Assembly (NCBI GenBank): GCA_024695185.1
Contig: JAILIR010000239.1
Span: 1 to 14,147 of the forward strand
Length of the DNA stretch: 14,147 nucleotides
Origin: a bacterium
Lineage (GTDB): Bacteria; Bacillota_I; Bacilli_A; Acholeplasmatales; JAEDCM01
Reading direction: 5' to 3'
Shown: one piece after another, positions 1-12,318 of the stretch
Layout of the letters: each line of letters starts with the position of its first letter
Position numbering within the stretch: the first letter of the stretch is position 1
Notes under the pieces: model-generated
Database searches by the model: none
What the model saw: only the letters and a program-made list of their open reading frames with translations
What the model was told of the DNA's origin: nothing
Made by a program: the position numbers and the translations under genes

Positions 1-2536
1 ATATTAAGCTTAATGCTTCTCTAGGAGAAAGATCATCAGCATTAATATCATTAAGTATTTGAACTACTTCAGGAGTTTCTTTAATTTCAATGTGTTCTTC
101 TTCATCAAAATTAAATAAATCCATCTCTATTTCTGTTTTACCTTTAGTCTTTTCTAAGTAATTTAAAATATCTGATGCTCTATTAATTACCTGATTAGGT
201 AGATGAGCTAATTTAGCAACATTTATACCATAACTCTTATCACTTGGTCCATCAATAACCTTATGTAGGAATACTAAAGTGTTTTTATCATCTTTAGCTG
301 ATACATGAATATTTTTTAATCTCTTTAATGTTTTATCCAAAGCTGTTAGTTCATGGTAGTGAGTTGAAAATAAGGTAATAGCTCCAATTTTTTCATGAAC
401 ATATTCTATTACTGCTTGAGCTAAAGCCATACCATCATATGTAGCAGTACCGCGTCCTATTTCATCAAATAGAATTAATGAGTTTTTAGTAGCGCCTTTT
501 AGTGCATTATTAACCTCAGTCATTTCAACCATAAATGTCGATTTGCCACTAACTAAATCATCAGCAGCGCCAATTCTAGTATATATTTGATCAATGATTG
601 GAAGTGTCGCGCTCTTACAAGGTACAAAACAGCCAATTTGAGCCATTATCAAGATAATAGCAAGCATTCTCATATAAGTTGATTTACCACTCATATTTGG
701 GCCTGTAATAAGCAATATATTATAGTTTTGGTTTATATTTATATCATTAGATACAAATGGATCTTCACTTAATATTTCAACTACAGGATGACGTCCATCA
801 ACAATATTTATTTCTAATTTATCAATTAGTTTAGGCATGACATAATTATTCTTTTCACTAACTATAGCAAAAGATAATAAGCAGTCAATTGTTGAAATAA
901 TCTTAGCATTTATTTGAAGATTATTTATATATTTTAAGCATTCACTTCTTATTTCTAAGAATAATTCATATTCTAGTTGCATTGATTTATCTTTACTATT
1001 TAGAATTAAAGATTCATATTCTTTAAGTTCTGGAGTAATAAATCTTTCTGCATTTGCAAGTGTTTGTTTTCTAACATAATTTAAGTCATCACTAATAGTT
1101 TGGGCAGCCATTTTAGATATTTCAATATAATAACCAAATACTTTATTATATGATACCTTTAGTGTTTTAATTCCTGTCTTTTCTTTTTGTTCAGCTTCAT
1201 AATTGATTAGCCAATTCTTTCCGTTTTTAGTAATATCTCTTAAATGATCTAATTCTTCATTATAGCCCATTTTGATGATGTCACCATCTTTAATAGTAAC
1301 AGGTGCATTTTCATCAATGGCCCTTTCTAATAATTGATATAATGAATCAAGTGGATCTACTAGAGATGCTAATTCAGTTGCATAAGCTGTATCAATTTTT
1401 TCAATATTTTCTTTTATATTAGGTAAATATTTAAGTGAATTTTTAAGTTGTAATAAATCTCTTGCATTGGCATTTCCATAAGAGATTCTACCAACAATTC
1501 TCTCTAGGTCATAGACATTTTTTAGTTCACTAATTAAGTCTTCTTTTACCTCATAATTATTGATTAAATTATTTACAATACTAAATCTATTTTGGATTAA
1601 TTTTTTATCAATTAATGGCCTAGTAATCCACTTTTTTAACTCTCTAGATCCACCTGCAGTTTGACAGTGATCTAGTAAATATAATAGGGATCCTAGTCTA
1701 GTTTGGTTTCTTAAATTTTCTAGTAATTCTAAGCTATTAATTGTATGAATATCCATTCTTAAAAATTGTTTAGAATTATAATATTCAAGTGGTTTTAAAT
1801 GCATTAATTCACGTTTTTGTGTTTTAATAATATAATTAATCATTCTACCAAATGATTCAATGATTGCAGAATCATTTATATTTTTTGAAAGGTTATTCCA
1901 TATTGAATCAAGAGTAGTTTCATCACAAATAGAAATAACAATTTGATATTTATTTTTCATGCAATCAATAGCAATCTTATTAAATTTTGATGGAATTATT
2001 ATTTCTTTGGCATTTAAAATAAGTAATTCATTTATTAATAAATCAACTGAATTAATTATCTTAGTAGCATATGTTTCACCTGTTGAAAAGTCGATATAGC
2101 ATATGGCATATTCGCCTCTATCTTCAGTTACTGATACTAAGTAATTATTTTGATTTTCACTTACACTACCCTTATCAATATTAGTTCCAGGAGTAATTAG
2201 CCTAACGACATCACGCTTAACTATTTTACTTATGCCTGGTTCTTCCAATTGTTCAACAATGGCGACTTTATAACCTTTTTCCGTTAATTTATCTATATAA
2301 GTATCTACAGCCATATGAGGGATTCCACACATAGGAACTCTCTCTTTAGCTCCAGCATCCTTACCTGTTAAACATAACTCAAGTTCCTTAGACGCAATGT
2401 ATGCATCATTAAAGAACATCTCATAAAAGTCTCCTAACCTAAAAAAGACTAGTGTGTCCACATAGTCTTTTTTAATGTCTAAATATTGTTGCATCATTGG
2501 AGTATATTGATTTCTATCAATATCCTTAAAGTCCAT
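1..2536 (-). CDS. mutS: DNA mismatch repair ATPase MutS, C-terminus cut off by the window edge
   Basis: MutS binds base mismatches and small loops in the cytoplasm and, with ATP, recruits MutL. I translated 845 residues in one uninterrupted frame from the ATG at 2536, which has a GGAGG ribosome site at 2546-2550. The mismatch-reading Phe-x-Glu motif is at F37/E39 (GDFYE). The lever domain carries the usual TAGGSRELKKW segment near residue 295. The ATPase has Walker A TGPNMSGKST with K618, Walker B with D691/E692 (FDEIGRGT), and the H-loop STHYHEL at H726. The visible end (LSPREALSLI) matches the last helix of the family, so probably only about ten codons lie outside the window. It starts 20 bases after the upstream membrane-protein gene and very likely shares its transcript; mutL would be expected next, beyond the window. 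Identity is certain; the stop codon is not seen. Confidence 0.98.
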   Translation of the reverse strand, partial: MDFKDIDRNQYTPMMQQYLDIKKDYVDTLVFFRLGDFYEMFFNDAYIASKELELCLTGKDAGAKERVPMCGIPHMAVDTYIDKLTEKGYKVAIVEQLEEPGISKIVKRDVVRLITPGTNIDKGSVSENQNNYLVSVTEDRGEYAICYIDFSTGETYATKIINSVDLLINELLILNAKEIIIPSKFNKIAIDCMKNKYQIVISICDETTLDSIWNNLSKNINDSAIIESFGRMINYIIKTQKRELMHLKPLEYYNSKQFLRMDIHTINSLELLENLRNQTRLGSLLYLLDHCQTAGGSRELKKWITRPLIDKKLIQNRFSIVNNLINNYEVKEDLISELKNVYDLERIVGRISYGNANARDLLQLKNSLKYLPNIKENIEKIDTAYATELASLVDPLDSLYQLLERAIDENAPVTIKDGDIIKMGYNEELDHLRDITKNGKNWLINYEAEQKEKTGIKTLKVSYNKVFGYYIEISKMAAQTISDDLNYVRKQTLANAERFITPELKEYESLILNSKDKSMQLEYELFLEIRSECLKYINNLQINAKIISTIDCLLSFAIVSEKNNYVMPKLIDKLEINIVDGRHPVVEILSEDPFVSNDININQNYNILLITGPNMSGKSTYMRMLAIILIMAQIGCFVPCKSATLPIIDQIYTRIGAADDLVSGKSTFMVEMTEVNNALKGATKNSLILFDEIGRGTATYDGMALAQAVIEYVHEKIGAITLFSTHYHELTALDKTLKRLKNIHVSAKDDKNTLVFLHKVIDGPSDKSYGINVAKLAHLPNQVINRASDILNYLEKTKGKTEIEMDLFNFDEEEHIEIKETPEVVQILNDINADDLSPREALSLI

Positions 2537-2556: not shown

Positions 2557-4755
2557 TTATTTACCGAACCAGCCTTTAATTGTCTTAGCGATTGATTCGT
2601 ATAATCCATCACCTAAAATCTTATGGATTACATCTCTTACGCCTTCATATAATCCTTGAAGTGGTGTACCTTCTAATACTCCTAGTAATCCAAGGATACC
2701 AAGAATAATAACTAGTACTAATAATATAACAAGTATGATTAATACCCATTTTAAAATTGTAACAACTGGATTTGATTTTTTCTTACGTCTTGCAACTTTA
2801 GAATCAGCTTGAAGAGCTTCTTTAATAGCTTTTTCTTCAGCAGCTTTCTTCTTCTTATCCATCTTGCTTTCGTTTCCAAGTCTTCTTTCTCTTGCAGCCT
2901 TATCTTCTCCATACATTGGAGCTTCAAATACTGGTGCTTCGAAAATTGGTGTATCAAATAATGGAGTATCAAATGATCCGTATTCATCAGAATCGTCATA
3001 TGATGGTGAATCGAATTGAGTTTCAGCAGGAGCTTCTTCAACCTTAGTTTCAGATGGTTGATCAGCAGCTTGATAGCTTTCAGTTGGTTCTTCTTCGATA
3101 TCAGGCATAGCTATATCTTCGAAGTCTTCAATCTTAACTGTATCTTCATCTTCTTCCTCAGTTTCAGTTTCATCAATCATGTTAAGTTCTTGATTTTCTG
3201 TATCTTCTAATCTAATTAGACCTTCTTCTTCCTCAACAACTTCTTCTTCAGGTTGCTCTTCTTCAACTACTTCTTCAACAACTGGTTCTTCTTCAACTAC
3301 TTCTTCAGTAGTTTCTTCTGTTGCTTCTTCAGGTTGTTCTTCTTCATAATCGAATAGAGGAACTACGAATTCATCTTCTTCAAGATCCTTAGATTCTTGC
3401 ATATTAGCCATTTGTTCTTTTAATGTTTCATTTTCTTCTTTTAGAGCATCCATTTCAGCTTGCTTTTGAGCTTCTTCTTCAGCAGCAGCTTCTTCAGCTA
3501 ATCTAGCTTCTTCAGCAGCTTTTTCTTCTTCAGCGATTCTAGCTTCTTCTTCAGCAGCAGCTTCTTCTTGAGCTAATCTTTCTGCTTCAGCATCAGCAAG
3601 TGCTTGTTGTTTTTCAGCTTCAGCTTGATCTTTAACTTCTGCTAATTCTTGTTCATGAGCTTCTTGTTGAGCTTTTAGAGCTTCTTCAGCAGCATCAGCC
3701 TTAGCTTGAGCTTCTTCAGCTTGTTTAGCAAGTTCAGCTTTTTCTTCTTCGCTCTTATCTTTATTATTCATTTGCATTTGAAGATTTAAAATCATAGCCT
3801 TTAATTCTTCGATTTGTGCATTTGATTGAGGAGCTTCTTCAGCAGGAGCTTCTTCAACGATTTCTTGATCTTCTACGATTTCTTCTTCATCTTCGATAAT
3901 TTCATCATCTTCAGTTGGGATATCTAATACTGCTAAATTTACATAAGACTTTTGTACTTCAGTTTCAACACGATTGATAATGTATTCAATGATGTCTTCT
4001 TTCTTTAATTCGATAGAAGCCTTAACACCATTTTGTTTTGCATATCTTTGTAATTGTTGAACGCTCATACGTTTAACTTTTTCTTGTTCTTCAGGAGAGA
4101 ACTTACCGCTTGCGCTACATGCATCAATAATAATGTCAGCTAATTCTTCCTTCTTAATTCTTCTTGGAACATCGATATTGTATTTAGCACCGATTTCTCT
4201 TAATTCATTTAAAGTAGAGCTCTTTGCTAATACTTCTCTGAATGTATTGTATTCTAGACCATCAACTTCGTTTCTTTCATCATAGAAAAGTGAATCCATT
4301 CCGCGTTGATATTCAGCAATACTTTCTTTTTGGCTCATCTTGTAGCCTCTAGCAGTTTCGAATAGTCCTGTAAGTTTTTCAGTTTCAATCTTTAGTTCTT
4401 CATGAAGTTTGATGAACATTAACCATAATGTCTCTCTATATTCATTGTAAATCTCAGCATTAGAAATTAAAGTAAGGATTCCTTCAAGTTGGTGCTCACT
4501 AAATGTGTTTAACCATCTTAAACGATAACGAACTTCATCTGTGAATTGTGATTTGTATTCAGCCTTCTTAACTCTCTTATCGATAACTTTGTGAAGAGCA
4601 GTCATACGTACCTTTCTTGGCATGTTCATGCCTTGTTCATTAAAAAAGGCAACGATTTCTTTTGAAGGTAGGTCTTTTAATGTAGCTAGTACATCTTCAA
4701 CTTTCATCACTTGTCCGTTAATTTCTAATTCACTACCACGACTAATAACTTTCAT
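2557..4755 (-). CDS. Unrecognised 732-residue membrane-anchored protein with SAP-like repeats, coiled coil and acidic region
   Basis: I do not recognise this protein. The ATG at 4755 is preferred over the one at 4770, because the GGAGG ribosome site (4764-4768) lies inside the first codons of the longer reading. In order it shows three SAP/HeH-like helical repeats of 34 residues (29-62, 180-213, 230-263), an acidic linker (280-308), a Glu/Ala/Gln-rich coiled coil (about 313-455), a very acidic Glu/Val/Thr region (456-560), four F-[DE]-[TA]-P-hydrophobic repeats (595-614), a basic patch (653-660, ARRKKK), one long membrane span (about 664-692), and a 38-residue tail ending in two GLYE repeats (701-732). 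The basic patch just before the span predicts a cytoplasmic N-terminus. SAP-like folds often bind nucleic acid, so a link between membrane and nucleoid or RNA is possible; this is inference. It has its own promoter, precedes mutS, and sits where B. subtilis has cotE, with no resemblance to CotE. Confidence 0.9.
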   Translation of the reverse strand: MKVISRGSELEINGQVMKVEDVLATLKDLPSKEIVAFFNEQGMNMPRKVRMTALHKVIDKRVKKAEYKSQFTDEVRYRLRWLNTFSEHQLEGILTLISNAEIYNEYRETLWLMFIKLHEELKIETEKLTGLFETARGYKMSQKESIAEYQRGMDSLFYDERNEVDGLEYNTFREVLAKSSTLNELREIGAKYNIDVPRRIKKEELADIIIDACSASGKFSPEEQEKVKRMSVQQLQRYAKQNGVKASIELKKEDIIEYIINRVETEVQKSYVNLAVLDIPTEDDEIIEDEEEIVEDQEIVEEAPAEEAPQSNAQIEELKAMILNLQMQMNNKDKSEEEKAELAKQAEEAQAKADAAEEALKAQQEAHEQELAEVKDQAEAEKQQALADAEAERLAQEEAAAEEEARIAEEEKAAEEARLAEEAAAEEEAQKQAEMDALKEENETLKEQMANMQESKDLEEDEFVVPLFDYEEEQPEEATEETTEEVVEEEPVVEEVVEEEQPEEEVVEEEEGLIRLEDTENQELNMIDETETEEEDEDTVKIEDFEDIAMPDIEEEPTESYQAADQPSETKVEEAPAETQFDSPSYDDSDEYGSFDTPLFDTPIFEAPVFEAPMYGEDKAARERRLGNESKMDKKKKAAEEKAIKEALQADSKVARRKKKSNPVVTILKWVLIILVILLVLVIILGILGLLGVLEGTPLQGLYEGVRDVIHKILGDGLYESIAKTIKGWFGK
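2914..2973 (-). repeat. Four tandem pentapeptide repeats F-[DE]-[TA]-P-hydrophobic
   Basis: Residues 595-614 of the membrane protein read FDTPL, FDTPI, FEAPV, FEAPM: two pairs of near-identical five-residue units in a disordered, acidic stretch before the membrane anchor. A related VPLFDYE sits at residues 465-471. Evenly spaced Phe-acid-x-Pro units in a flexible segment suggest short linear docking motifs for a partner, but no partner can be named. Confidence 0.85.
3469..3567 (-). repeat. 27-base direct repeat in the coiled-coil coding region, offset 72 bases
   Basis: The same 27 bases occur at 3469-3495 and 3541-3567. The offset of 72 bases is exactly 24 codons, so the copies encode near-identical RLA(Q)EEAAAEEEA segments of the coiled coil (around residues 393-405 and 418-429). 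The surrounding GAA/GCT-rich codons are repetitive as well. Copy loss or gain by slippage or recombination would keep the reading frame and change only coiled-coil length. Confidence 0.8.
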
Positions 4756-4763
4756 ATTCAATA

Positions 4764-4768
4764 CCTCC
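4764..4768 (-). promoter_or_regulatory. Ribosome binding site deciding the start of the membrane-protein gene
   Basis: GGAGG on the minus strand lies 8 bases before the ATG at 4755 and inside the codons that follow the alternative ATG at 4770. This makes 4755 the likely start and gives a 732-residue product. Confidence 0.85.
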
Positions 4769-4801
4769 ATATGTATTTTTTTATTAGATATCTACTTTAA
4801 C

Positions 4802-4830
4802 ATTTTACAACATTTATTTTAGTATTTCAA
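4802..4830 (-). promoter_or_regulatory. Sigma-A-type promoter for the membrane-protein gene and mutS
   Basis: TTGAAA (4825-4830) and TAAAAT (4802-4807) are separated by exactly 17 bases. Transcription would start near 4795, leaving about 40 bases of leader before the ATG at 4755. A-tracts lie just upstream at 4843-4848, 4857-4861, 4865-4871 and 4875-4881. The upper three are spaced 9-10 bases apart, as in curved DNA or an UP element. No terminator hairpin is visible between the preceding ymcA-like gene and this site. Confidence 0.65.
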
Positions 4831-4889: not shown

Positions 4890-5156
4890 CTACCAAAAAT
4901 TAATGTTTATGGCTTCATTTATAATGTTACTTATCATTGATAAGTCATTTTTTACTAATTTTTCTAATTCTTGGTACTCATAAATCATCTCTATAAGGGG
5001 AAAATTGTCAATTTTCGCTTCACTAAGGGATAAATCAGTTTTTGATAGCTTAATATATTCATCATTTGATAGAATTATTTTTCTTAGTTCAATATAGCGT
5101 TTTACAATATCGTTATTCTTAAGTTCTATAGCTATTCTATTCAACTTCTTCACCAA
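4890..5156 (-). CDS. ymcA: Small YmcA/YlbF-family (Com_YlbF) protein
   Basis: This 88-residue, all-helical, charged protein ends in a pattern typical of the Com_YlbF family (FPLI...Y.ELEKLV..DL..I..IIN..IN). In B. subtilis, YmcA, YlbF and YaaT form the Y-complex, which assists RNase Y in maturing certain mRNAs and affects biofilm, competence and sporulation. The position directly after miaB matches ymcA, and rny itself is nearby. The start is uncertain: TTG at 5156, GTG at 5153 or TTG at 5144. A GGTGA ribosome-site match at 5150-5154 fits the last best, giving 84 residues. All three overlap the 3' end of miaB (by 20, 17 or 8 bases), implying translational coupling. At 88 residues it is much shorter than the roughly 140-150 of the B. 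subtilis proteins and lacks the Cys-rich tail of YmcA. Family assignment is by pattern and synteny; it could be YlbF rather than YmcA. Confidence 0.6.
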   Translation of the reverse strand: MVKKLNRIAIELKNNDIVKRYIELRKIILSNDEYIKLSKTDLSLSEAKIDNFPLIEMIYEYQELEKLVKNDLSMISNIINEAININFW

Positions 5157-6555
5157 TTAAAAACCAAGTTTTGGCTTCTGTGATTTTCACATTTACAATA
5201 GTTCCAATATGGTTTTTGTTTCCTTTAAAGTTAACTAATTTATTGTGCTCTGAATATCCACATAAAATGTTTTCATCATTTTTAGATGTTCCATCAACTA
5301 ATACTTTTACAACTTTTCCTTCAAATCTTTTATTACCTTTTAAGTATCCAGCATTAATCTTATCATGTAATAAATCTAATCTCTTGTGGGCAGTAGCCTC
5401 ATCTATTTGATCCTTGTATGTTGCAGCTGGAGTGCCTTCTCTAGGTGAATAAATAAAAGTAAATGCACCTTCAAAATCTACCTCATCACATAATCTTAAA
5501 GTCTCATTAAAATCTTCTTCAGTTTCTCCAGGGAAGGCTACTATGATATCAGTTGTAATAGATATTCCTGGATTTAATTCTTTAAGTTTATTTATCTTTT
5601 CTAAATATTCCTCATGAGTATATTTTCTATTCATTCTCTTTAAAATAGTATTACTTCCTGATTGGACAGGTAAGTGTAAATGAGGCATAATGTTAGGCCT
5701 TTGCATAGCCTTCATTGTTTCTATATCTAAATCTCTAGGATGACTTGTCGTATATCTTATTCTTTCTATTCCTGTATCACTTAAATCAAGTAAAAGATTT
5801 GAGAATGTATAATTCATATCCTTAAAATCTTTACCATAGGCATTAACATTTTGACCTAAAAGTGTTATTTCTAAATAACCATCTTCTACTAAGCCTTTAA
5901 CTTCATCAATTATATCTTTAGGTCTTCTTGATCTTTCTTTACCTCTAGTATAAGGAACTATACAATAAGTACAGAATTCATCACAGCCAAACATAATATT
6001 AACCCAAGCTTTTTTCTTTGATAGTCTAATATGAGGTAGCTTTTCAACAATATTCCCTTCAGTTGAATATACTTCAATTAATCTATCTGTTGATTTTTGA
6101 GCTCTATAAATATATTCAGGCAGCATATGAATATTGTGTGTACCAAATACAACATCTATTTGAGGATATTTATCAAGAATTTTAGTAATTGTCTTTTCTT
6201 CTTGAGGCATACATCCACAAATACAAATAATCATATCCTTCTTCTTTTGTTTTAAGGCTTTTAATCCACCAATAGTTCCATAGAATCTATCTTCCGCATT
6301 TTCTCTAATAGCACATGTATTAATAATTAAGACATCAGCATTTTCTTTAGGCCCATTAGTAAAACCCATTTGTTCAAGGATACCACTCATTACTTCACTA
6401 TCAGCTTCATTACCTTGACAGCCAAAAGTAATGACATTATATATTTTACCATTACCTATATTTTTATATTTATCATCTAAGCTATACTCTATTTCTAGAG
6501 TATTACCATTAGTTCTTTTTCTTGCTAATTTTAAATCAGGTCTGTTATAATCCAT
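5137..6555 (-). CDS. miaB: tRNA-2-methylthio-N6-dimethylallyladenosine synthase MiaB
   Basis: MiaB is a radical-SAM methylthiotransferase that adds a methylthio group to i6A37 of tRNAs reading UNN codons. The 472-residue protein has the UPF0004 domain with the auxiliary iron-sulphur cluster cysteines C46 (TFGCQ), C81 (NTCAIRE) and C115 (CGCMPQEE). The radical-SAM triad is C191-x3-C195-x2-C198 (GCDEFCTYC), followed by IVPYTRGKERSRRP and a C-terminal TRAM domain (about 405-470). The strings GTHNIH, LLGQNVNAYGKD and FIYSPREGTPAA are diagnostic of MiaB rather than RimO or MtaB. TFGCQGNE has Gly where MiaB usually has Met (CQMN), a mild oddity. The start ATG has GAAGGGA upstream. It follows the ymdB terminator, has a probable extended -10 promoter, and its 3' end overlaps the ymcA-like gene. 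Confidence 0.97.
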   Translation of the reverse strand: MDYNRPDLKLARKRTNGNTLEIEYSLDDKYKNIGNGKIYNVITFGCQGNEADSEVMSGILEQMGFTNGPKENADVLIINTCAIRENAEDRFYGTIGGLKALKQKKKDMIICICGCMPQEEKTITKILDKYPQIDVVFGTHNIHMLPEYIYRAQKSTDRLIEVYSTEGNIVEKLPHIRLSKKKAWVNIMFGCDEFCTYCIVPYTRGKERSRRPKDIIDEVKGLVEDGYLEITLLGQNVNAYGKDFKDMNYTFSNLLLDLSDTGIERIRYTTSHPRDLDIETMKAMQRPNIMPHLHLPVQSGSNTILKRMNRKYTHEEYLEKINKLKELNPGISITTDIIVAFPGETEEDFNETLRLCDEVDFEGAFTFIYSPREGTPAATYKDQIDEATAHKRLDLLHDKINAGYLKGNKRFEGKVVKVLVDGTSKNDENILCGYSEHNKLVNFKGNKNHIGTIVNVKITEAKTWFLIGEEVE

Positions 6556-9180: not shown

Positions 9181-9220
9181 AATAAGAAAAAAAGCGAAAA
9201 AGCTATTTGTACTTTTTCGC
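9181..9220 (-). terminator. Strong Rho-independent terminator overlapping the glmU 3' end
   Basis: GCGAAAAAG (9212-9220) pairs perfectly with CTTTTTCGC (9194-9202), followed by seven T's and a further T-rich run. The upstream arm encodes the last codons of glmU, and the TAG stop (9203-9205) sits in the nine-base loop. Confidence 0.9.
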
Positions 9221-10540
9221 ATATCCTTTTTTATTGATTTGTCTACTTCTAGCTATTGCTAAATCATTATCATCTACATTATCAGTTATAGTAGATCCAG
9301 CAGCTATAAAGGCATTATCTTTAATCTCTATTGGAGCAATTAAATTACTATTGCATCCAACAAATACATTATTACCAATTACAGTTTTACTCTTCTTCTT
9401 ACCATCATAATTAACAGTAATAGAACCACAACCGATATTGACATTGTTACCTATTTCGCTATCTCCTAAATAAGATAAGTGACTAGCTTTTGTTGTTGTT
9501 CCTAAAATAGAATTCTTAACCTCAACAAAGTTACCTATTCTATTACCTTCTCCAATAATCGCATTCATTCTAATATGGGCAAATGGACCAACAGTTGCTC
9601 CCTTACCAATTCTTGAATCATAAACTACAGAATGCTTAACCTTAGCATTTTCTAAAACATTCGCATTATGTAATTCAGAGTTTGGACCAATAATTGCTCC
9701 TTTTTTGATAATAGTATTACCACTAATAAATGATCCTTGTAAAATAGTTACACCATCTTCTATAACAACATCAGGATAAATAGTTACAGATTCAGGATTA
9801 ATAATATTTACACCATTAAGCATATGTTTTTTTAGAATGTTTCTTCTAACCATATCTTCTACTCTACTTAAGGCATATAAATCATTTATGCCATATAAGA
9901 TATCATTATCATCTAGGATAATGGATGCTATATCGGTAGTAAATTTTAATAAGTCAGTTAGATAATATTCTTTTTTGAAGTTATTATTATCTATTTTATG
10001 AATAGCTTCCTTTAAGAACTTATTATCAACAACCATTATGCCTGTATTAACTTCTTTAATAAGCTTCTCATCTTCATAAGCATCTTTTTCTTCAGCAATT
10101 CTAACTATCTTACCGTTTTCTCTAATGATTCTACCATATCCAGTGGGATTATCTAAAAAAGTTGTTAGAATAGTTATATCTTTTTTTAAAGCCAATTCTG
10201 TTTCTATTAAAGAATTAATTTTTTCATAATTAATTAGTGGTGTATCACCTGGAATTATTAAAGTGATACCATCATCTAAATAATTAAGGGCTGCTTTTAC
10301 AGCATCCGCAGTTCCAAGTTGGTTTTCTTGTGTTGCAAATACACAGTTATTTTTAAGTAAATCATAAAACACTTCTTTTTTATAACCAACAACTACTATT
10401 CTTTTTTCAACCTTAGTTTTATCTAGGGCATCCATTATATAATTAATCATTGGCTTTTCTAAAATAGGAAAGGCACACTTTGGTAAGTCGGTTTTCATTC
10501 TTGTACCTTTACCAGCTGCTAAAACAATGGCATTAATCAT
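9203..10540 (-). CDS. glmU: Bifunctional GlcNAc-1-P uridyltransferase / GlcN-1-P acetyltransferase GlmU
   Basis: GlmU carries out the last two steps to UDP-GlcNAc: acetylation of GlcN-1-P, then uridylation. The 445-residue protein has the N-terminal pyrophosphorylase domain with LAAGKGTRM (7-15), LPK (K21), QLGTADA (74-80), the metal-binding GDTPL (D99) and NTGIM (166-170). The C-terminal left-handed beta-helix has GPFAHIR, IGNFVEVK, catalytic H354 in KASHLSYLGD, the NYDG loop (377-380) and the end motif LAIARSRQ. It lies one base downstream of glmM, with its ribosome site inside the glmM 3' end, so the two are cotranslated steps of one pathway. The segment after LPK (CAFPILEKP) differs from the common VLHxxxGKP, losing the usual His. 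In B. subtilis glmU is elsewhere (near purR-spoVG and prs), so this location is a rearrangement. Confidence 0.97.
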   Translation of the reverse strand: MINAIVLAAGKGTRMKTDLPKCAFPILEKPMINYIMDALDKTKVEKRIVVVGYKKEVFYDLLKNNCVFATQENQLGTADAVKAALNYLDDGITLIIPGDTPLINYEKINSLIETELALKKDITILTTFLDNPTGYGRIIRENGKIVRIAEEKDAYEDEKLIKEVNTGIMVVDNKFLKEAIHKIDNNNFKKEYYLTDLLKFTTDIASIILDDNDILYGINDLYALSRVEDMVRRNILKKHMLNGVNIINPESVTIYPDVVIEDGVTILQGSFISGNTIIKKGAIIGPNSELHNANVLENAKVKHSVVYDSRIGKGATVGPFAHIRMNAIIGEGNRIGNFVEVKNSILGTTTKASHLSYLGDSEIGNNVNIGCGSITVNYDGKKKSKTVIGNNVFVGCNSNLIAPIEIKDNAFIAAGSTITDNVDDNDLAIARSRQINKKGYAKKYK

Positions 10541-10541
10541 T

Positions 10542-11813
10542 TTATTTCACTCCCTCATTTATTAATGATACTAAATTATTTAAACATTCTTCCATAACAG
10601 ACTCATCTTTATGTATTACTGTTACTCTTATTAAATCTTCAGTACCACTTGCTCTTAAGATAATTTTACCATATTTATCAAATGATTTTTCATATTTTTT
10701 TACAGTATCTACTATATTAGGATTATTTATAATATTTTTATCACTAACTTTTAGATTAACCATCTTATATGGATACATCTCTATATCCTTTGTTAAATCA
10801 TATAGTGATTTATTTTCTTCAGATAAAATAGTAAGTAAAATAATCGCATTAAGCATTCCATCCCCTGTAATAGTATATGGAGTAATAATATGCCCTGAGT
10901 TTTCGCCACCTAGAGAATACCCACTCTTTTTCATTTCATCTAAGACATTTTGATCTCCTACACTTGTTAATACGCTATTAATACCTATTTCACTTAAAGA
11001 ATTAATTACACCTAAATTACTCATTACTGTTAAAACAACAGTATCTTTTTTTAACATATCATGCTTTTTAAAGAATTTTGTAAATAAGTATATTAATTTA
11101 TCACCATCAACTATATTTTTCTTATCATCAACAACTATTATCCTATCAGCATCACCATCAAAGGCTATACCTAAATCATAGCCATCCATATTGTTAATTA
11201 AGTTTTCAGGATGTGTTGCTCCACAATTTTCATTAATGTTTTTACCATTTGGTTCATTTGAAATATACTTTACTTTAGCCATTTTATCAAAAATATGAAC
11301 ATAGTTACTTGAAGCACCATTAGCACTATCAATAACTATTTTTAAATTAGTTCTAAGTATATTTTTAGATAAAAAATCTAAATAAGTTGTTTCTTCAACC
11401 TTTAATATACCATTAATTTTATGAGAAAAATCAAGTATACCATCAATATAATCTTCAATGATTTTTTTATCAATATCATCAATTTTATAACCCAATTTAA
11501 CTATTTTAATTCCATTATCTTTATATGGGTTATGACTAGCTGTAATCATTACACCTATTGATTTTCTAAAATAGCTTTCTAAAATTAAACCAGGGGTAGG
11601 AACAACATTTAGGTTAATAACCTCTAAGCCCACACTTAAAGCTCCTTCAATAAGCTTATTAGATAAATCAACTGATGATTCTCTTGTATCATAGCCTATA
11701 ACTACTTTATTTAAATTTAATAAGGATAGTGATCTACCTACCTTATAAGCTAAATCAAGTGTTAGCTTAGTATAGGCTTCTCCTCTAATTCCATCTGTGC
11801 CAAAATATTTCAT
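10542..11813 (-). CDS. glmM: Phosphoglucosamine mutase GlmM
   Basis: GlmM converts glucosamine-6-P to glucosamine-1-P, the substrate of GlmU. The 423-residue alpha-D-phosphohexomutase begins with the GlmM signature YFGTDGIRG (3-11). The phosphoserine is S93 in TASHNPYKDNGIK, the Mg2+ loop is DGDADR at 219-224, the sugar-binding loop is GGENSGH at 302-308, and the phosphate-binding loop is RASGTEDLIRV at 387-397. Most GlmMs have R(P/K)SGTEPLIRV, so the Asp in place of the second Pro is unusual. Length is slightly below the usual 445-450. Its ATG overlaps the TGA of the upstream phosphatase gene (ATGA), with GGAGG at 11821-11825, and glmU follows after one base. Phosphomannomutase or phosphoglucomutase activity is possible for the superfamily, but the N-terminal signature and glmU neighbour favour GlmM. 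Confidence 0.94.
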   Translation of the reverse strand: MKYFGTDGIRGEAYTKLTLDLAYKVGRSLSLLNLNKVVIGYDTRESSVDLSNKLIEGALSVGLEVINLNVVPTPGLILESYFRKSIGVMITASHNPYKDNGIKIVKLGYKIDDIDKKIIEDYIDGILDFSHKINGILKVEETTYLDFLSKNILRTNLKIVIDSANGASSNYVHIFDKMAKVKYISNEPNGKNINENCGATHPENLINNMDGYDLGIAFDGDADRIIVVDDKKNIVDGDKLIYLFTKFFKKHDMLKKDTVVLTVMSNLGVINSLSEIGINSVLTSVGDQNVLDEMKKSGYSLGGENSGHIITPYTITGDGMLNAIILLTILSEENKSLYDLTKDIEMYPYKMVNLKVSDKNIINNPNIVDTVKKYEKSFDKYGKIILRASGTEDLIRVTVIHKDESVMEECLNNLVSLINEGVK

Positions 11814-12307
11814 TTTATAACCTCCAATAATGTTTTCACTCTTAAAACATTAAAATCAAGTTCTTCATCATTATTAATTAAATAGATATTCTTAATTCCT
11901 GCATTATATGCGGCTATAGCATCAGTAATTTTATCGCCTACCATAATAGAATTTTCTAAATCTATATTATATTTATCTTTAGCATCAAAAAACATTTTAG
12001 GTTTAGGTTTCCTACATTCACAGTTAGAGTTTGGATCATGTGGACAATAGAATACATCTAAAATATCAACGCCATGTTTTTTAAATTCTTCTAGCATGTA
12101 ATTATTAACTTTTAAAAAATCGTCTAATGTATAAAGATTTAAGCCTATTCCTGTTTGGTTTGTAACAACAATAACCTTATAGTTTTTACTAATATAATAT
12201 TTGCATAACTCAAAAATACCATCAATAAAAACAAAATCTTCAATTCTTGATACATGGCCATGATCTATATTTATTACGCCATCTCTATCCAAAAATAAAA
12301 CCTTCAT
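11810..12307 (-). CDS. gmhB: HAD-superfamily sugar-phosphate phosphatase, GmhB-like
   Basis: This 165-residue protein has the HAD IIIA layout of the GmhB/HisB-N group: nucleophile D7 and acid-base D9 in FLDRDGVIN, T49 in VVTNQTGIG, and the Zn2+ loop C88-x-H90 with C96-x-C98 (CPHDPNSNCECRKPKP). D125 and D129 are in MVGDKITDA. GmhB removes the 7-phosphate of D-glycero-D-manno-heptose 1,7-bisphosphate; close relatives act on histidinol phosphate or other sugar phosphates. The start is taken as ATG at 12307 with AGGTGA at 12313-12318. A GTG at 12316 would add three residues but lies inside that ribosome site. It is shorter than E. coli GmhB (about 190). The ATGA overlap with glmM ties it to the amino-sugar genes, and no other heptose-pathway gene is in view, so the true substrate is open. 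The family is clear; the substrate is inferred. Confidence 0.85.
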   Translation of the reverse strand: MKVLFLDRDGVINIDHGHVSRIEDFVFIDGIFELCKYYISKNYKVIVVTNQTGIGLNLYTLDDFLKVNNYMLEEFKKHGVDILDVFYCPHDPNSNCECRKPKPKMFFDAKDKYNIDLENSIMVGDKITDAIAAYNAGIKNIYLINNDEELDFNVLRVKTLLEVIK

Positions 12308-12312
12308 ATACT

Positions 12313-12318
12313 TCACCT
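12313..12318 (-). promoter_or_regulatory. Ribosome binding site deciding the start of the gmhB-like gene
   Basis: AGGTGA, a full match to part of the anti-Shine-Dalgarno complement, lies five bases before the ATG at 12307 and covers the alternative GTG at 12316. It also lies only four bases after the T-run of the recA hairpin. Confidence 0.7.

Follow-up and report, generated by a model that had tools for sequence, protein, structure and literature searches.

Tail-anchored proteins with LEM/HeH-like repeats in Acholeplasma- and Izemoplasma-type Bacilli: a possible tether of DNA or RNA to the membrane

The window, by which we mean the whole 14,147-nt stretch of DNA that was analysed, carries on its minus strand, in this order, a miaB-type gene, a short YmcA/YlbF-like ORF, the gene of a 732-residue protein and mutS. 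The features of the locus, all on the minus strand, are the following.

2557-4755, minus strand: gene of the predicted tail-anchored protein, 732 aa, stop included (open frame; start from ribosome-binding site and alignment)
4764-4768, minus strand: GGAGG ribosome-binding site (sequence)
4802-4830, minus strand: promoter-like TTGAAA-17-TAAAAT (consensus match only; 13 in the region against 10.3 expected)
2-2536, minus strand: mutS, beginning 20 nt downstream and running off the window (TIGR01070, 1028.4 bits)
4890-5156, minus strand: short YmcA/YlbF-like ORF (position; Com_YlbF E 0.23, below the cut-off)
5137-6555, minus strand: upstream miaB-type gene (Radical_SAM, UPF0004 and TRAM matches; presumably miaB)
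3958-4755, minus strand: conserved N-terminal domain, residues 1-266 (at least 171 proteins, own included; AlphaFold2 pLDDT 87.5, pTM 0.80)
4564-4677, minus strand: repeat R1, residues 27-64 (hhalign to R2 and R3; predicted helices H31-40 and H47-62)
4117-4242, minus strand: repeat R2, residues 172-213 (hhalign to R3; predicted helices H182-191 and H202-215)
3964-4080, minus strand: repeat R3, residues 226-264 (Pfam, Rho_N best at 228-261; predicted helices H232-241 and H252-274)
2836-3957, minus strand: variable linker, residues 267-640, with a Glu/Ala stretch at about 310-460 and a very acidic stretch at about 461-595 (hardly aligns between relatives)
2908-2973, minus strand: F-[DE]-[TA]-P-x motifs, residues 595-616 (sequence; largely confined to close kin)
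2770-2901, minus strand: basic juxtamembrane stretch, residues 619-662 (sequence)
2656-2778, minus strand: C-terminal membrane span, inside residues 660-700 (hydropathy)
2560-2655, minus strand: short tail, residues 701-732 (sequence; poorly conserved outside close kin)

The start of the protein is placed at ATG 4755, which the GGAGG motif precedes by 8 nt and whose methionine is common to most of 21 aligned relatives; for these two reasons a 737-residue form starting at 4770 is unlikely. The YmcA/YlbF-like ORF encodes 88 residues from a TTG start, overlaps the end of the miaB-type gene and is possibly degenerate. Elsewhere in the window (9203-12316, between rny and recA) lie genes reading as glmU, glmM and a GmhB-like HAD gene, the last being the only one of the three that was searched against families; the set is also found in both congeners (loci L031 and L032) and was not listed, at bits over 45, in the other loci compared.

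A search with residues 1-280 of the protein recovered 51 proteins, its own included, and a profile built from 17 distant members recovered 160, the best 120 of which we took; together they bring the family to at least 171 proteins. Judged from these comparisons, this is an unnamed but real bacterial protein family, in agreement with the earlier note, which knew of no named family with this order of parts: with the exception of the Rho_N domain, no characterised family scored over the cut-off. The listed members are called 'hypothetical protein' in records of Erysipelotrichales, Acholeplasmataceae, Izemoplasma/Izimaplasma, Xianfuyuplasma and Bacillota, the two exceptions being mutually conflicting JGI labels (P0105, YukD-like; P0151, Zn ribbon). 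The gene is present in 79 of 100 genomes, own included, and the 21 without it comprise all 16 of genus g20 and five of family f2. Class-wide, 127 of 395 genomes reach E <= 0.001; by our count of the listing, the match is long in 99 of these and only short and weak in 28. Of 392 genomes drawn from the phylum, 51 match at E <= 1e-8, all of them the window's own or from the same order or class. By our reading, a FastTree tree of the family broadly follows families. Two genomes (G281 and G322, loci L135 and L137) have second, diverged copies of the gene beside short ORFs that, by eye, resemble signal peptidase and TasA/camelysin-type proteins.

With respect to the N-terminal domain, all 26 invariant columns in an alignment of 21 proteins fall inside residues 73-258. 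Comparison of its repeats by hhalign, using sub-alignments of 37 domains, gave ungapped matches for R2 with R3 (E 9.1e-9, probability 96%), R1 with R2 (E 5.3e-5, 67%) and R1 with R3 (E 3.1e-4, 39%), against E-values of 0.014 to 0.41 for seven control pairs involving two non-repeat segments of the domain; given these values, the sequence relationship of R2 to R3 is firm and that of R1 is weaker. The window domain passes the Pfam Rho_N cut-off (39.2 bits against 24.9). With a limit of E 0.1, Rho_N matches 56 of 60 members, and with a limit of E 0.05 it matches 12 of 17 distant ones, the first of the latter scoring 19.1 bits, below the cut-off. Pfam HeH/LEM, again with a limit of E 0.1, matches nine of the 60 (lowest E-value 1.6e-4); it also matches one of the 17 distant members (E 0.0078), and is not listed among the family-profile matches of the window protein. 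Moreover, AlphaFold2 predicts a helix, an extended loop and a second helix at each of R1, R2 and R3, both in the window domain and in a 330-residue homologue from Xianfuyuplasma coldseepsis (pLDDT 84.4, pTM 0.77), which shares 24-29% identity with six co-aligned rows from Acholeplasmatales-type loci; the helix order largely agrees between the two models. No match to the whole-domain fold was found among solved or viral structures by Foldseek, whose matches VIA-align re-scores. The three SAP/HeH-like repeats described in the earlier note are hence borne out by hhalign, by Rho_N and by the predicted helix-loop-helix units, R1 less strongly so in sequence, and the models, on which that note had staked the SAP/HeH-type fold, contain helix-extension-helix units. 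Modules of this kind are frequently binders of DNA or RNA.

The net charge of the domain is about zero or slightly negative (mean -1.7 in alignment A3 and -3.4 in A2) and is unevenly distributed. R1 and R2 are basic on average (+2.7 and +1.4 in A3; +1.3 and +2.9 in alignment A4), R3 is close to zero, and two other segments are acidic (-3.0 and -2.4). Lysine or arginine occupies R47, R199, K201 and K202 in at least 95% of 37 rows, and these sites lie within, or end, the predicted loops of R1 and R2. Profile searches against the PDB returned sub-threshold matches to two nucleic-acid factors that have this fold, Ku70 (SAP, 1jjr, E 0.21) and Rho (3l0o, E 0.56), along with unrelated proteins ranking as high or higher, namely SdcA (E 0.16), syntaxin (0.0029) and a dopamine receptor (0.29).

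The arm that follows the domain carries a net charge of -105 across residues 263-600 of the window protein, and the DNA encoding its Glu/Ala and acidic stretches consists in parts of tandem repeats. Among relatives, its length ranges from some 30 residues, in short forms of about 330 residues that retain both domain and span, to several hundred. By hydropathy, the window protein has one clear span near its C terminus, as is characteristic of tail-anchored proteins. A C-terminal span, counted as one that starts within the last 110 residues, is present in 80 of 90 ORFs of relatives from fetched loci, and such a span occurs in 161 of the 171 proteins. The ten exceptions among the ORFs include four split ones (L082, L086, L088 and L089), in which the next downstream ORF carries the span, one cut by the end of the locus (L058) and five plainly span-less ones that no split or cut explains (L035, L039, L040, L042 and L057); one further member, L166, has four predicted spans. 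The Glu/Ala stretch, the very acidic region, the basic juxtamembrane patch and the single span are all as first described, the observation as a whole stands, and the anchored architecture persists across families. The pentapeptide motifs and the short tail, likewise described, do exist in the window protein but belong mainly to its close kin: the F-[DE]-[TA]-P-x motif is clear in P0001 and P0026-P0028, occurs as two copies in P0038 and as a trace in P0034, and is absent from the remaining rows of the 21-protein alignment. Neither motif nor tail is a core feature.

An additional feature emerged in the related genus g13, of which all ten species among the 100 genomes were examined (G019, G025, G028, G031, G034, G040, G045, G047, G055 and G092). 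In five of them (loci L086, L088, L089, L172 and L173), a run of A10 (G025, G031, G034 and G047) or A11 (G040, whose piece begins inside the gene) lies just past the domain, after about codon 380 of the homologue. The frame of the domain meets a stop 2 to 6 codons beyond the run. The -1 frame, which opens 43 to 61 nt ahead of that stop, runs on for 326 to 354 codons and so reaches into the acidic arm; it includes the C-terminal span in four of the five, the contig of G040 ending before it. In G045 (L091) an A10 run stands at the same place in frame, and the other four species have no such run and a single continuous frame. These six are the only runs of at least 10 A or T in 121,456 bases, taken as one locus for each of the ten species. 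Changes after the run, by codon position of the -1 frame, show a third-position excess among the three closest species (3, 5, 13; 8, 9, 15; 10, 11, 18) and no clear excess in seven more distant pairs (e.g., 34, 19, 30). The pattern fits translation of the -1 frame and is compatible both with frameshifting and with a recent split of the gene; that no other such runs occur in these loci suggests frameshifting or slippage in g13. The split in G010 is of another kind, the second ORF simply coming after the stop, and in the window gene all runs of A or T are shorter than 7.

As for the wall, the spore coat and Noc, a cultured member of Izemoplasmatales is described as wall-less (PMC10470597). We surveyed 67 genomes of our own choosing, 40 with the gene and 27 without. 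CotE was found in five of the 40 and nine of the 27, MurG over the cut-off in none and nine, a MurG-like match at E < 1e-20 in five and 16, and Noc over the cut-off in none and eight, respectively. Five genomes (G010, G019, G028, G113 and G219) combine the gene with both CotE and a MurG-like match below the MurG cut-off. Since the gene is found both with and without CotE and MurG-like matches, its role seems bound to neither wall nor spore coat. In the window's genus, no MurG match was found in three of three genomes (72-83% complete), and the tail is poorly conserved, so that the earlier suggestion of an outside tail contacting the envelope is not supported. The absence of Noc may be only a clade trait, because G059, G067, G078, G098 and G103, which belong to the same families and do not have the gene, lack it too; genome G000 has a single match to the ParB/Noc model, on another contig (C189).

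Beyond the modules, the arm, the anchor, their conservation and the gene position, which computation establishes, we infer a cytosolic orientation, nucleic acid as the ligand and a tethering role. Our first choice, held tentatively, is that these tail-anchored proteins tie DNA or RNA to the membrane in the manner of LEM/HeH proteins. The three helix-extension-helix modules, lying in a cytosolic N-terminal domain, would hold nucleic acid, most likely the chromosome and possibly RNA; the acidic arm, long and flexible, would lead from there to the final membrane helix and serve as a spacer of loosely constrained length. This is consistent with the HeH-type repeats detected by both sequence profile and predicted structure, the basic R1 and R2 with their near-invariant loop residues, the C-terminal span of most members, which a downstream ORF supplies where the frame is split, and its retention in the short forms. 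The occurrence of the gene in genomes without a MurG-like match as well as in five with CotE and such a match, the hints of Ku70 and Rho, and the lack of Noc over the cut-off in all 40 gene-plus genomes point the same way. Against it stand the neutral to slightly acidic charge of the domain as a whole, the unrelated proteins that equal or outrank Ku70 and Rho, the lack of an overall fold match, the five unexplained span-less ORFs together with four-span L166, the clade-like distribution of Noc, and the small, phytoplasma-like genomes of g20, all 16 of which show that some such cells manage without the gene.

The same charge distribution, basic in R1 and R2 but neutral or slightly acidic overall, leads us to rank second, as unlikely but the main rival, a scaffold that organises membrane or division machinery and whose HeH modules have a protein as their ligand, in the way that BAF is bound by the LEM domains of metazoans. 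A neutral to acidic domain would suit such a role, LEM proteins provide a precedent for protein binding (PMC4810098), and 35 of our 40 chosen gene-plus genomes lack a MurG-like match at E < 1e-20; however, the conserved basic residues at the R1 and R2 loops and the passing Rho_N score argue against it, and no partner gene is linked across all the contexts examined.

Distinctly less probable is a part in RNA decay or translation, in which the protein would bind RNA and give RNase Y, encoded in the same gene cluster, a platform at the membrane. In many loci rny, ymdB and miaB are upstream (miaB within 2.5 kb in 59 of 82 ORFs), and the Pfam family takes its name from Rho; but 12 of 19 loci of f2 have no matched miaB, ymdB or rny upstream, while mutS is downstream in all 19, the rny-ymdB-miaB cluster also exists without the gene (L154 and L162), and PF07498 is described as covering a part of Rho without the key functional residues (PMC11829017). 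At one locus, L165 (G375), rny is split over two ORFs, by a frameshift or an assembly error.

The linkage to mutS, whose persistence the earlier note proposed to check, holds in most loci: among 83 distinct loci with 1.5 kb of downstream sequence, mutS lies within 2 kb downstream in 69 and within 100 nt in 65. Nevertheless, an accessory of MutS/MutL that brings mismatch repair to the membrane is improbable. The gene also occurs without MutS1, which is missing over the cut-off in six of 14 gene-plus genomes tested, many of them picked because mutS is unlinked there; the six are 97% (G159), 92% (G228), 82% (G375), 84% (G402), 90% (G081) and 88% (G343) complete. Furthermore, such linkage can simply be inherited, given that a ymcA-like ORF, cotE and mutS stand in that order in L154 and L162, where CotE, in the absence of the gene, occupies the place between the other two. 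In gene-minus L158, CotE follows the ymcA-like ORF and two more ORFs precede mutS, and in gene-minus L160 an IMP dehydrogenase stands between the ymcA-like ORF and mutS. In G010 (L082), the order is miaB, a ymcA-like ORF, CotE, the gene (without a span), an ORF with a C-terminal span and mutS; this is a two-gene version with CotE and the gene both present. The gene sits in or beside the cotE slot, and the G010 order, together with the place of CotE in gene-minus relatives, indicates that it probably adjoined cotE before the loss of cotE in many lineages. A sporulation-derived protein that replaced CotE, whose place the gene occupies relative to L154 and L162, is already disfavoured to the point of being scarcely credible, as no CotE (PF10628) match was found in the window protein, and CotE and the gene stand side by side in G010 and coexist in five of 40 gene-plus genomes. 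No CotE match was found in G000 (72% complete) either.

Returning to the tether of nucleic acid, a bolder version, which we consider doubtful, would make the family the bacterial counterpart of LEM/HeH proteins, a dedicated nucleoid-membrane tether of Acholeplasma- and Izemoplasma-type Bacilli, with one genus using a conserved poly-A run, through ribosomal frameshifting or slippage in transcription, to set the ratio of free to anchored protein. Of the interpretation offered in the earlier note, the family, the repeats, the anchored layout and the mutS linkage are supported, and the envelope-contacting outside tail is not. The family, with its DNA/RNA-type modules on a membrane leash, is a concrete candidate for what holds and spaces the chromosome where a wall and a Noc over its cut-off are both missing, and one accessible in cultured organisms (Paracholeplasma and Xianfuyuplasma).

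Several known systems invite comparison. The N-terminal domain of Rho (PF07498) and SAP proteins resemble the window domain, which passes the Pfam cut-off with its best stretch in R3; unlike Rho, the window protein has a membrane span and, of Rho's domains, yielded Rho_N with no ATPase or RNA-binding domain. Noc, a relative of ParB, is alike in the job proposed here, the bridging of DNA and membrane; the Noc model also matches ParB-type genes, and the family-profile search found no ParB-type domain in the window protein. In Bacillus subtilis, Noc recruits DNA to the membrane, which it is described as binding through an N-terminal amphipathic helix (PMC4331003), in contrast to the C-terminal span found here. 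The B. subtilis Ser/Thr kinase YabT differs in its kinase domain, of which the family-profile search found none in the window protein, and is alike in its anchoring C-terminal membrane helix and basic juxtamembrane part, which in YabT binds DNA (PMC6333020).

The closest likeness is to the LEM/HeH proteins of the inner nuclear membrane (emerin, LAP2 and MAN1; yeast Heh1/Src1), which also combine an HeH-type module and a membrane span in one chain; emerin has its LEM domain at the N terminus and its anchor at the C terminus. The window protein is bacterial, has three modules inside one domain and gave no MSC domain in the family-profile search, and the likeness is one of layout, with neither homology nor common descent claimed. 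One group of LEM/HeH proteins has a single span, and some bind DNA directly, as the fungal HeH domain can, whereas others bind a protein, which for the metazoan LEM domain is BAF (PMC4810098). By analogy with some nuclear envelope proteins, the family described here may keep the chromosome or RNA attached to the membrane; if DNA binding is true, the module-arm-anchor layout of nuclear envelope tethers also exists in bacteria.
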